Source: Pagrus major
Lineage: Eukaryota; Chordata; Actinopteri; Spariformes; Sparidae
Assembly (NCBI RefSeq): GCF_040436345.1
Contig: NC_133232.1
Span: 4,897,501-4,961,500 of the forward strand
Direction: 5' to 3'
Length of the DNA: 64,000 bases
Made by a program: the position numbers and the translations under genes. The first letter of the stretch is position 1; each line of letters begins with the position of its first letter. The notes below the pieces were generated by a model. The model had not been told where the DNA came from. It saw nothing but the letters and a program-made list of their open reading frames with translations, and did no database searches. This document shows, piece after piece, positions 5,908 through 59,850 of the stretch.

Positions 5908-6080
5908 GGGGGGTGACCATTCAGACGGTCCGCCATTCTGACCGGGTTAGGGTTAGGGTTAGGGTTAGGGTTTCAGGTTCGGAATGGTGCCCTTTTTTCA
6001 TAAATAATTAAGGGCCGGCATTTTGAAACATGAAAGTGAACGTTCGGAATGGTGGCCCTTCGGAATGCCGCCCTGGAACC
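5908..6080. mobile_element. 173-bp MITE carrying telomere-like repeats
   Basis: Flanked by a perfect 9-bp direct repeat GCAAATTTT (5899-5907 and 6081-6089), so it is an insertion into the Ty3-type element. Ends are imperfect inverted repeats (GGTGACCATTCAGACGG on the left, a CCATTCCGAA-type match on the right). The interior has about five GGGTTA units at 5944-5972. A 9-bp target duplication is typical of Mutator-like elements. Confidence 0.65.
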
Positions 6081-10780: not shown

Positions 10781-24733
<13,953 letters not shown>

Positions 24734-28812: not shown

Positions 28813-29494
28813 AGGATGAATTAATTAAATTAAATGTATAGCAGTAAAAAGCTAATGTTAGGCTACAAACAGACGACATCACGGTCACATGACTTAAATG
28901 TCACCACCACTAAGTGTCTTACTGCACAATTACTGGTTTTGTATAAACTGATCAATGTACAAGTTGTAAAGTCAGAGTTAGAATAGTTTGTGACTAAATT
29001 GGGCCTGTAAAGACAGACTAGTGAGTAGATGAGTCTCTGTGTTCGCTGTGAGGACGTTTAATGTCCCCGACCACCTCTGTAGTCTCATTTAGACACTTGT
29101 TAGCAACCGCTAAGCGAACCTCACCTGAAGCTTACCTGAAGCTCACCTGAACCTCAGCTGAACCCCACCTGAACCCCACCAGAACGTAACCTGAACCTCG
29201 CCTGAACACGTTTAGTTTCATTTAAACGTGAGCTTTTATTCTGAAACAAGTTTTTCAGGACTCAGTTTTCAGGCTAACGTCGAGAAAAAAGTCAAAAGCT
29301 AAATTAAAAAGTCATCGGCTGATTTTAAAAGCTGTTACAGTTTAATCACAACATTCTGATTTAATTAAAGGAGCAGAATGAAGACTACATTTCCCATGAG
29401 CACCTCCTCCTCCTGTAGGGTTTAACTTTCTCCTCATGAAGTTCTTCAGTCTGTTTTCTGTCACCAGCAGAGGGAGCTCTGCACACTGAAACCA

Positions 29495-36655: not shown

Positions 36656-53706
<17,051 letters not shown>

Positions 53707-56075: not shown

Positions 56076-56311
56076 CAGAGGAACTCATCACAAACACCTG
56101 AGAAACTGGATTAAAAATCAAAACTGCTGTGGTTAAACCTCAGTTTAAATGTTTGTGATCAGAACCAGGACAACAAACAGCCAACGTGTTTTTTTATTAT
56201 AAAAATAATTTTTATTTGGTTAAATTGTCCCAAAACATATTATTTATATAACATGAAACAAGCTGCAGCTCCATGTTCAGTCACGTGCTCACATGTTGTT
56301 GCTCCTCGCGC

Positions 56312-56344
56312 CCCGCAGAGGGCGCTGCAGGCGCAGCTTCCGGT
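56312..56344 (+). promoter_or_regulatory. exosc3 core promoter: CTCF-like and ETS-like sites
   Basis: CCCGCAGAGGGCGCTG (CTCF-like, 56312-56327) is followed by CTTCCGGT (ETS-like, 56337-56344) in a CpG-rich stretch about 90-115 bp upstream of the ATG. No TATA box is present, as usual for a housekeeping gene. Confidence 0.45.
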
Positions 56345-56427
56345 GTCCTGCGTGTCACATTTATTTCTGTCCGTCGAACAACAGCAGCAGCAGCGACACA
56401 TGTGAGCAGAGCTGCGAAGGAGTCGCG

Positions 56428-58632
56428 ATGTTTTCTGCTGTAAAAGAGAAAGTCGGGGAGGTTTTGTTACCGGGAGATGAATTCTGCTCTGAGGCCGACG
56501 ACACCATCTCTCTGACGGATCACGTTAAACCGGAGAAGGTGGTGTGTGGTCCGGGTCTGAGGCGGAGCGGAGACCGGCTGCTGGTGTGTAAAAGCGGCGT
56601 CCTCCGACACAAACAGCCCAACATGTTCTGGATCGACTCACAGCAGAGGAGGGTGAGACTTTAACGTCCTGTTCACACCGACACGAACGAGCCGTTTACT
56701 GTGAGTCTGCGTCCAGCAGCAGCTTCTACAACAGGCAGGATCCCATTTAGAAAAGTCGCAATTTAAAGGTTTTGTCGTCAGCAGACCTCAAACGCGTCAT
56801 ACGACAAGACTTTCAGACTGAATCAGATCATTAAGCTCCAGCTGTGATTACGGCTGTAACATGATGTCACCAGGCTGTGCGTGGTGCTCTCAGAGTTACA
56901 CTGAATGAATCAGGTCCGCTGTCATGTCGTCCCTCCGTCCGCTGAAGACCGCCGGGCTTTACTGCAGCGAGCAGCGGGACTCGGTTCTGAAAAGATCAGA
57001 TTATTTAGTAATACAGTACCGCTCGGTGAACCAGTCACACCCCGAATTACTCACAAGACCAAATCCGTTCATGAGAACTTTAGTTTTGGTTCTGAAAGTT
57101 AAAGTAATAACAACCGGATTCAGTCAAAATAAAAAGGTATATTTTTAAGCGGAGATCAGCAGATCCAGGTAGAAGACCTAAAGTAAAGTCAACCTAACAG
57201 TGAAGATTTTTGTGAAGTGAGGACATTTCGTCAGAAGAGGACATGTGTTGGAGCAGTGCATGCTGGGAGCTGAGTCTGTCTCTGTGTCCTCAGTATGTCC
57301 CCGCTAAAGGAGAGACCATCATTGGCATCGTGACGGTCAAATCAGGAGACGTCTTCAAGGTGGACTTTGGAGGAAGTGAGCAGGCGTCTCTGTCCTACCT
57401 GGCGTTTGAGGGAGCGACCAAGAGGAACCGGCCCAACGTCCAGGTGAGACTCTGAGGACATGGACAGGTCCAGGTGAGACACAGGCAGGTCCACGTGAGA
57501 ATCTGAGGATGCAGGCAGGTCCAGGTGAGACACAGACAGGTCCAGGTGAGACCCCGAGGACACAGACAGGTCCAGGTGAGAATCTGAGGACGCAGGCAGG
57601 TCCAGGCGAGACACAGGCAGGTCCAGGTGAGACCCTGAGGACACGGACAGGTCCAGGTGAGACTCGGACAGGTCCAGGTGAGACACAGACGGGTCCAGGT
57701 GAGACTCTGAGGACACAGGCAGGTCCAGGTGAGAATCTGAGGACACAGGCAGGTCCAGGTGAGACACAGATGGGTCCAGGTGAGAATCTGAGGACATGGA
57801 CAGGTCCAGGTGAGACACAGATGGGTCCAGGTGAGAATCTGAGGACACAGGCAGGTCCAGGTGAGACACAGATGGGTCCAGGTGAGAATCTGAGGACACA
57901 GGCAGGTCCAGGTGAGAATCTGAGGACACGGACAGGTCCAGGTGAGACTCGGACAGGTCCAGGTGAGACACAGATGAGTCCAGGTGAGACTCTGAGGACA
58001 CAGGCAGGTCCAGGTGAGACCCTGAGGACACGGACAGGTCCAGGTGAGAATCTGAGGACACAGGCAGGTCCAGGTGAGAATCTGAGGACGCAGGCAGGTC
58101 CAGGTGAGACACAGATGGGTCCAGGTGAGAATCTGAGGACGCAGGCAGGTCCAGGTGTGTGACCCCTCCCTCCCCGTGTGTTACCTGTGCAGGTGGGGGA
58201 CCTGGTGTTCGCTCAGTTCGTCATAGCCAATAAGGACATGGAGCCGGAGCTGGTGTGTGTGGACAGTTCTGGACGGGCCAATGGGATGGGAGTGTTTGGA
58301 GGAGGCGGCCTGCTGTTCAGCGTCTCTCTGGGATTGGTCCGCAGGTACGAGCTGCCTCAGGTGTTTGTGTGTCAGTGAGCAGGTGTGAGTGTCTCTGTTC
58401 TCAGACTGTGTCCCCCCCGTCCAGGCTGCTGTCCCCCCACAGTGACGTCCTGTCGGACCTGCAGCAGCTGTTCCCCTGCGAGCTGGTTCTGGGGATGAAC
58501 GGTCGTCTGTGGGTCAAGTCCTCCAGCGTCCAGCAGACGCTCGTCATCGCAAACCTGCTGCAGAGCTGCGACACCATGACGGCCCCGCAGAGACAGCAGC
58601 TGTTCAGGAGGGTGGCACAGGGGGCGCTGTAG
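56428..58632 (+). CDS. exosc3: Exosome component 3 (Rrp40), RNA exosome cap subunit, 4 exons
   Basis: Non-catalytic S1/KH cap subunit of the nuclear and cytoplasmic RNA exosome, which binds RNA and guides it into the 3'-5' decay channel. Exons 56428-56652, 57294-57443, 58193-58344 and 58425-58632 give 735 nt, 244 aa (human 275). The N-terminal region carries VVCGPGLRR and GDRLLV, followed by RHKQPN and WIDSQQRR. The S1 domain comes next, with [13 protein letters not shown] and KSGDVFKVD, then the family hallmark [16 protein letters not shown]. The KH-like C-terminal domain has [18 protein letters not shown] and GMNGRLWVK. The Asp matching human D132, the common pontocerebellar hypoplasia site, appears kept in SGDVFKVD. 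The N-terminus is shorter than in mammals. Exon 2 runs straight into an expanded splice-donor minisatellite. AATAAA at 59041 is the probable poly(A) signal. Confidence 0.95.
57438..58158 (+). repeat. Splice-donor minisatellite in exosc3 intron 2
   Basis: 28 tandem units of 30 bp (GTCCAGGTGAGAATCTGAGG, then ACACAGGCAG) or 21 bp (GTCCAGGTGAGACACAGATGG). Unit 1 contains the real exon 2/intron 2 junction. 25 of the 28 units keep CAGGTGAGA exactly. The exceptions are unit 3 (CACGTGAGA), unit 7 (CAGGCGAGA) and the last unit (CAGGTGTGT). The array fills almost the whole 749-bp intron, leaving about 35 bp before the exon 3 acceptor. Confidence 0.97.
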
Positions 58633-59040
58633 ACCGGGTCGGACCACAAGGACACCTGCTGGTCCACCTGAAGCAGTTCTCAGGGGCTCTGGTTCCGGGT
58701 TTTTGGTGCAGAACTGATTTAGTTTGTTGGAGTTTAAAGGACCATTGCACAGTTTTTTCCATCCCAGCTGAAACATCAGAGTCGTGTTTGTCGGTGCCGT
58801 CTGCTGCTGCAGTCTAAAACGTGGATCAGACGGATCCTACAGAGTTCTGACCCGGAGAACAAAACGTTCTCGGACCTTTTGGACGGGTCAAAATGTGTTT
58901 TTGTGAAACTAAACTATGAACAACAGACAAACAGTTTATTGTTTCAGCCGTATTTCTGAATTCTGTCCTCGGCTGCTTGCGACAAAAAAGACAAAAACCC
59001 AGAAGACGTCCAGAGAAGCTTCAGATGTTTTTATGTTTTC

Positions 59041-59046
59041 AATAAA
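59041..59046 (+). terminator. exosc3: exosc3 poly(A) signal
   Basis: AATAAA about 410 bp downstream of the exosc3 stop; the only canonical signal noticed in that stretch. Confidence 0.6.
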
Positions 59047-59069
59047 ATTCTGAGTAGAACCGGTTCCAG

Positions 59070-59850
59070 TTTGAATCCAGCATGAATTTTTTAAAATTAT
59101 TTTTATAACGGTGAATTTTAGTTTAAAAAAATTAAAATGAACTAAGCTACAACTAACTGCAGCTAGCCGATAGCGGTTACTGTGGGATACGCTGCCCCCT
59201 GTTGGTTTGGAGGATGAATTCAACTGATGACTCGTTCTTTCATTTTCCACTTCAACCAGTAAAAAGAAGGAAACATCACTGATGATGATGATGATGTCAC
59301 TGCAGTCTGTACTCATCAGAGATCCTCACTGACAGACAGATGCTCCACTCTGTAAAGAAATCTCTGCATGTTTAAAACGTCAGTTGAACCTGATTAAGTG
59401 TGGCTCAGTGTGGTGCAGCAGTACGGAGGACCAGAGGGGTCATACAGAGAAAATACATTGATACGATCTCAATTTAAAAACTGCTGTTATAAGATTATCA
59501 TTATTAATTATTAATCTAACATTACAGACCAAAGTCACACTGAAAGATAAAAGTGGTCGACAATTATCTTTGTCGACTCAACTCGTTTTTTTAACTTTAA
59601 ATTCATCAACAAATGTAAAAAATCAATTGTTTTAGTTGTTTTCTTTCTTCTCATTTGTGGCTGTTTTGTTAATGTTTTGTCTTCTGAATATCTTTTTAAA
59701 ATAGTTATCAGATATAATGTCGACTAGTTGGTTAAAAGATCATTCATTAAAAAAACGTGCTGATTATTCTATATGATATATATATAATTACTGTTAGTTT
59801 CTATCAGACACTGACGAAGGTGAAAATAACTGCAGTCAAACAAACTGAGA
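59070..59850. other. Convergent gap between exosc3 and paip2
   Basis: A/T-rich, no gene recognised apart from the two 3' ends and the CTCF-like site. Confidence 0.5.
59191..59205 (-). promoter_or_regulatory. CTCF-like motif between exosc3 and paip2
   Basis: GCTGCCCCCTGTTGG, reverse of CCAACAGGGGGCAGC, in the convergent intergenic gap. Inferred from motif only. Confidence 0.35.

Follow-up and report, generated by a model that had tools for sequence, protein, structure and literature searches.

We analysed a window of 64,000 nucleotides of the Pagrus major genome (C18:4897501-4961500; the genome comprises 786 Mb in 25 contigs); positions without a contig name refer to this window. On its + strand lies exosc3, with four coding exons (56428-58632). 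We identified the gene as EXOSC3/RRP40 from the match of its spliced 244-aa product to PDB 6h25_G (E 4.8e-96) and to the Pfam family RRP40_S1 (E 7.2e-35). The coding part of exon 1 (56428-56652) was placed by comparing the spliced translation with the PDB RRP40 protein, the CDS being in frame. Exon 2 (57294-57443; 150 nt, ending ...RPNVQ) was defined by protein alignment and is bounded by the acceptor TCAG and the donor CAG|GTGAGA, and exon 3 (58193-58344) and the coding part of exon 4 (58425-58632) were defined by protein alignment and the CDS. The alignment with 6h25_G is continuous across the junction of exons 2 and 3 (VQ|VG), and the last six exonic bases of exon 2, GTC CAG, are the codons for V-Q, which is also present in the aligned human protein. 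Intron 3 is 80 nt long. Intron 2, as delimited by sequence reading and protein alignment, occupies 749 nt (57444-58192, + strand), and its non-repeat 3′ end (58158-58192) reads as a pyrimidine tract followed by TGTGCAG. The A at 58162 (TGTGAC) is a candidate branch point.

The rest of the window holds, on the + strand, an ORF of the fish NLR type with FISNA, NACHT and helical domains (16310-18121) and, beyond it, a PRY-SPRY ORF (24059-24733). There are also a short telomere-like GGGTTA run (5944-5972), which is internal to the contig, a large 30-bp minisatellite of about 38 copies (49145-50344) and, on the − strand, an 11-bp donor-like array, TTCAGGTGAGG (29116-29207), with no adjoining exon seen by eye.

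The intron 2 donor of exosc3 lies inside a minisatellite. Using Tandem Repeats Finder and unit parsing, we observed a + strand array at 57438-58148 that is made up entirely of 27 complete units (16 of 30 bp and 11 of 21 bp). It is followed by a partial 28th unit, GTCCAGGTG (58149-58157), which begins GTCCAGGTGTGTGA and merges with the 3′ part of the intron. Scores over parts of the array reach 658, and therefore a chance origin can be excluded. We counted 25 exact copies of GTCCAGGTGAGA in the window, all of them on the + strand and within the array; the − strand has none. Units 3 (GTCCACGTGAGA), 7 (GTCCAGGCGAGA) and 28 deviate from this sequence. AGGT is found in all units but two, unit 3 having ACGT and unit 7 AGGC. 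Unit 1, which includes the last two codons of exon 2, is the authentic donor of this exon (CAG|GTGAGA, 57441-57449), and 24 exact decoys stand 3′ of it. The array fills 95% of intron 2, with the intron length set at 750 nt in this calculation.

An earlier note on this DNA had given the same counts of exact copies and decoys at the same coordinates, and both unit parsing and the exact-word count bore them out. It had also taken unit 1 to be the real donor, which agrees with the register of units 1 and 2 across the end of exon 2 and with the protein-confirmed junction, and had described the array as nearly the whole intron, as the 95% coverage confirms. Its proposal that the array grew from the exon-intron boundary is supported as well, since the six exonic bases GTC CAG are repeated in register with the remainder of the unit. 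As this register is kept throughout the array, expansion from the boundary is the simplest history.

We distinguished 16 unit types among the 27 units. The 3′ half of the array is more uniform, but only moderately so: units 1-10 are all distinct, units 11-20 comprise six types and units 18-27 eight. The 21-bp units seem to resemble 30-bp units that lack 9 bp, with two distinct losses, one of the CACAGGCAG type and the other of the CTCGGACAG type. Two other sources of the array were considered and rejected. For a longer exonic source, the bases preceding GTCCAG in exon 2 aligned with four unit tails no better than shuffled sequences did (P 0.30 to 0.63). For an import from elsewhere, a genome search with the whole array returned the array itself, a second exosc3 copy at 91% and ten matches at 64-76%, and the latter proved on reading to be arrays of similar composition.

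Deleting units 2-27 (681 nt) would leave an intron 2 of 68 nt. This residue is close to the 80 nt of intron 3, and so we infer that the array probably enlarged a minimal intron some tenfold. The position of the acceptor and the candidate branch point beyond the repeat suggests that intron 2 may be older than the array. Introns arising from tandem arrays were reportedly described by Zhuo in 2007. Intron gain by tandem duplication is the subject of a further report (PMC4974935). The likeness to exosc3 lies in a tandem duplication across a splice site, and the difference is that in exosc3 no new intron is seen, the repeat seeming to have extended one already present.

Unit 1 and all of the 24 exact decoys have the same predicted pairing with U1 (−11.1 kcal/mol), compared with −4.7 for unit 3, −6.7 for unit 7, −8.5 for unit 28 and −7.1 kcal/mol for the exon 3 donor. 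A shielding of the decoys by RNA structure was rejected: opening the real donor was predicted to cost 4.0 kcal/mol with a narrow folding window, against 2.6-4.9 for the other units, and 4.8 kcal/mol with a wide one, against 2.7-5.3. As the real donor is predicted to be no more accessible than the decoys, RNA structure offers no account of how it would win.

Translation beyond exon 2 runs GTG AGA CTC TGA and thus stops after three codons. This TGA (57453-57455, + strand), located by frame translation and in frame with exon 2, would be reached by any decoy isoform as well as by intron retention. Because it lies inside unit 1, the stop is identical for every decoy; when computed for the donors of units 2, 3, 6 and 27, it was in all cases three codons past exon 2, so that the common stop codon proposed beforehand for all decoys also held. 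The exon 3/4 junction is at least 170 nt 3′ of the TGA, and therefore, on general knowledge, nonsense-mediated decay of the decoy isoforms would be expected. A tie between the decoys and the exosome's own role in decay is speculation.

The second exosc3 copy found in the genome search with the array is complete (copy B; C18:4630687-4634000, L056) and lies 323 kb upstream on the same contig. A genome search with the DNA from exon 1 to exon 2 found two places only and no third exosc3 locus. The segment common to the window copy (copy A) and copy B spans 56266-59535 on the + strand (C18:4630687 onward in copy B), with a near-identical gene body and an interrupted 3′ flank. The two copies agree throughout the 735-nt CDS and the last 44 nt of intron 2 (58149-58192), which include the partial unit. 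There is one change in 641 nt of intron 1 and one inserted base in intron 3. Three changes fall within the first 183 nt of the 3′ UTR (58633-58815) and four within the 162 nt 5′ of the start codon. On the 5′ side the homology stops at 56266. The outer 3′ flank (59161-59535) has an identity of only 85.4%, and in copy B about 1.2 kb of additional DNA separates it from the preceding shared sequence.

Against this near identity of intron 1 and CDS, the array has 27 units in copy A and 10 units, plus the same partial end unit, in copy B. Eight of the ten are exact, hence copy B has 7 exact decoys compared with 24 in copy A, and its units 9 and 10 carry GGCGAG. Unit 1 is identical in both copies, and its type is found in both at position 1 only. 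The seven unit types of copy B are all among those of copy A. Their order differs between the copies, and therefore neither copy is a simple deletion of the other. A difference of 17 units between nearly unchanged flanks indicates that the array is hypervariable, with both of its ends fixed. Hypervariable minisatellites in general have internal variant repeats and change in length far faster than their flanks change by substitution. The exosc3 array has the same traits, but here the first unit also serves as a functional donor.

As the array length is taken from the assembly, an assembly artefact or a false duplication might account for this picture. We judge this very unlikely, since the presence of 16 different unit types in 27 units argues against an artefact, and a false duplication is at odds with a copy B whose 5′ flank is unmatched beyond 56266 and whose 3′ flank is interrupted at 85%. 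For the same two reasons, copy B is more likely to be a true paralogue than a haplotype. The contrast between the near-identical gene body and the 85% identity of the outer 3′ flank leads us to suspect gene conversion between the copies, and the best fit would be an old duplication, the gene body of which was later homogenised in this way.

Two copies that encode the same protein and have 24 and 7 exact decoys, each decoy in copy A pairing with U1 as well as the real donor does and all sharing one stop codon, could point to a regulatory function. The decoys would then send a set share of the transcripts to nonsense-mediated decay, the unit number would set the output of each copy, and selection would keep the decoys intact while holding the copies at different settings. 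The low variation of the 12-nt core is also in favour of this possibility. In the copy A array, 2 of 324 core cells are changed, compared with 50 of 387 in the rest of the unit (Fisher P 7e-12, a value valid for independent cells, whereas the cells here are non-independent). When minimum events were counted instead, we obtained 2 in the core and 12 elsewhere (P 0.015), and after removal of the 7 of these 12 that we classified, by our own judgement, as CpG-type, the comparison became 2 versus 5 (P 0.31).

Of 30 loci (28 that were read and both exosc3 copies), we compared 14 for core variation; this comparison is biased, since the arrays outside exosc3 had been chosen either for an exact core or for similarity. 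A vps52-like gene and L039, L030, L062 and L040 also had a core of low variation, and L047 and L043 showed the same trend weakly. At L039, L030, L062 and L040, we detected no coding exon where the array begins, so that a conserved core is also seen away from detected coding donors, which speaks against a regulatory reading of it. The trend was opposite, with a more variable core, in vps13c, L009 and L060, and the core and the rest were alike in L058 and L051. Some decoys have moreover been lost, as in units 9 and 10 of copy B. The loss of significance without the CpG-type events leads us to reject selection on the exosc3 core as a finding; the sequences give no convincing sign that the decoys would be maintained by selection, with some room for it left by the cell counts and the P of 0.015. 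Altogether, we regard a selected series of decoys that diverts transcripts to decay as unlikely.

The genome-wide behaviour of donor-like words bears on the same question. We searched for a pattern of three word copies with gaps of 4-34 bases on both strands, with the reversed pattern as a control; the counts are overlapping hits and not numbers of arrays. The donor word CAGGTGAG (U1 pairing −11.1) gave 1563 hits (686 + 877 by strand) against 341 for the reversed pattern. This excess of ∼4.6-fold over its own control indicates that the word is favoured over its mirror. As a single word, the only one so counted, CAGGTGAG occurs 55,598 times compared with 19,113 reversed. The corresponding pattern counts were 2570 versus 233 for CAGGTGTG (−6.7), 1146 versus 376 for CAGGTCAG (−6.9) and 224 versus 11 for AAGGTGAG (−9.6), most of the listed matches of the latter coming from one C23 locus. 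CAGGTAAG, a strong donor word (−11.0), gave 12 versus 4. Hence, the weakly pairing words CAGGTGTG and CAGGTCAG form arrays about as readily as CAGGTGAG does. Donor strength as the main driver of the arrays finds no support in these array-rich weak words and the paucity of CAGGTAAG arrays; array formation tracks sequence and not the strength of U1 pairing. That weak words build arrays about as often also counts against the decoys being a selected device. Two 39-bp CAGGTAAG arrays (C13:18538988-18539151 and C23:8499660-8499823) match in the letters listed; they have a pyrimidine tract before CAG (TTTCTTTCAG|GTAAG), and their units look like an acceptor plus a donor.

Among 100 listed matches to the CAGGTGAG pattern, which reach C4, we distinguished 23 arrays by eye and read 22 of them, the remaining one, at C2:697844, being nearly equal in its listed sequence to C2:666300. 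Within these listed matches, 2 of the 22 arrays read start at a coding donor (L042 and L044). Six further loci came from the whole-array search (L057-L062); one of them starts at a coding donor (L061), and L057 and L059 are without a CAGGTGAG array. At L061 (C4:39897800-39899200), the array starts at the donor of a vps13c exon (PDB 9yqp_B, E 1.7e-11), and at L044 (C4:35729800-35730900), an array of three units lies at the donor of phka exon 1 (PDB 8jfk_M, residues 1-26, E 6.2e-8). At L042 (C3:877800-878900), the array is at the donor of a putative vps52 exon; the next exon was seen, and searches of Pfam and PDB gave no support for the vps52-like label.

Thus, exosc3 is not alone: vps13c, a phka gene and a vps52-like gene share its arrangement, with unit 1 at the real donor. 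The arrays of L045, L050 and L040 may start at 5′-UTR exons; one open phase is present upstream in L040, without a Pfam match. No exon-linked case was found in the two AAGGTGAG arrays read (L065 and L066). At L026 (C1:2.53 Mb), a CAGGTGAG array is antisense and directly precedes the acceptor of an ATG8-family exon, so that in the sense of the gene it is a CTCACCTG array. Judging from the excess of the single word, the share of arrays at coding donors is probably not above expectation, provided that many CAGGTGAG words taken at random are real donors.

Arrays of this kind have a human counterpart. A donor minisatellite in IFI6 (G1P3, 6-16) was reportedly described by Turri, Cuin and Porter in 1995; its 12-bp unit is said to resemble the donor consensus and to begin near the end of an exon, the in-frame use of later units reportedly adds residues, and a variable unit number is said to be a trait of this kind of array. 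According to a later report, two downstream repeat units of human IFI6 act as donors and give rise to different isoforms (PMC4526556). The exosc3 array is similar in that its unit contains the donor consensus (25 of the 28 units are exact GTCCAG|GTGAGA), in that the authentic donor is itself an array unit and in its variable unit number, 27 versus 10 between the two gene copies. It differs from IFI6 in having 21/30-bp units and in the stop that any later donor meets, and its later units are candidate donors. The earlier note had stated that no case was described in exosc3; this part stands, as our literature searches, some of them weak, turned up no description of an exosc3 array of this type, but the kind itself is known from human IFI6.

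UBC is a tandem array of dual-specific splice sites, and VCX3A is treated likewise (Duan 2024, PMC10809524). UBC and VCX3A resemble exosc3 in the AGGT of each unit and in a unit number that changes quickly. One could accordingly imagine recursive splicing in exosc3, in which the AG|GT of each unit would serve alternately as acceptor and donor as in UBC; every exact unit has CAG|GTGAGA and would regenerate the same donor, and the study on UBC describes tandem repeats with dual-specific sites. However, the exosc3 units are purine-rich before the AG and have no pyrimidine tract. The UBC repeat is coding and its sites act both as donors and as acceptors, whereas the exosc3 repeat is intronic and lacks acceptor features. 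Both intron ends are in the repeat in the UBC type, but intron 2 of exosc3 ends at a conventional acceptor (58190-58192), outside the array and after a pyrimidine tract. We find recursive splicing here hardly credible.

We consider it probable that the array is a nearly neutral, hypervariable minisatellite, which had its origin at the donor of exosc3 exon 2 and then grew within a formerly minimal intron. An early duplication would have fused six exonic and about 24 intronic bases, and slippage or unequal exchange may then have enlarged and contracted the block. Its left edge would be fixed by coding constraint and its right edge by the branch point and the acceptor. Unit 1, the use of which we assume, would be chosen in most transcripts through exon definition, and leakage to the decoys would lead to the stop after three codons and to removal by nonsense-mediated decay. 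Because leaky transcripts would be stopped and decayed in this manner, the array could be tolerated and remain close to neutral. Such arrays would be common because CAGGTG-type sequence readily makes minisatellites in this genome, and not mainly because of a donor role.

Instead of being nearly neutral, the array might be a mildly harmful burden, whose decoys waste transcripts and whose load is bearable thanks to the second gene copy. The two copies with identical proteins would allow this, and the 24 decoys, which equal the real donor in predicted strength and have no structural shield, would be a plausible source of waste. However, the array is present in both copies, and changes in the exosc3 unit are fewer, not more numerous, inside the core than outside it. 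It is improbable, in our view, that the array is such a load. We also give little credence to the idea of a heritable dial, in which the decoy number (24 versus 7) would set the share lost to nonsense-mediated decay, so that a fast-mutating minisatellite would tune the dose of an essential RNA-decay subunit, with the same dial in the vps13c, phka and vps52-like genes. The two copies with 24 and 7 exact decoys make dosage tuning directly testable, and the transcripts of copies A and B could be distinguished by the three changes in their 3′ UTRs (58633-58815).

How the spliceosome chooses among many equal donors is an old question, which has usually been studied with few sites. Here, exosc3 offers a natural test of it, with 25 equal donors at known spacing in copy A and 8 in copy B, which encodes the same protein. 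Three more genes with the same anatomy, found among the 28 loci read, suggest that such loci form a natural series in genomes with many CAGGTG minisatellites.
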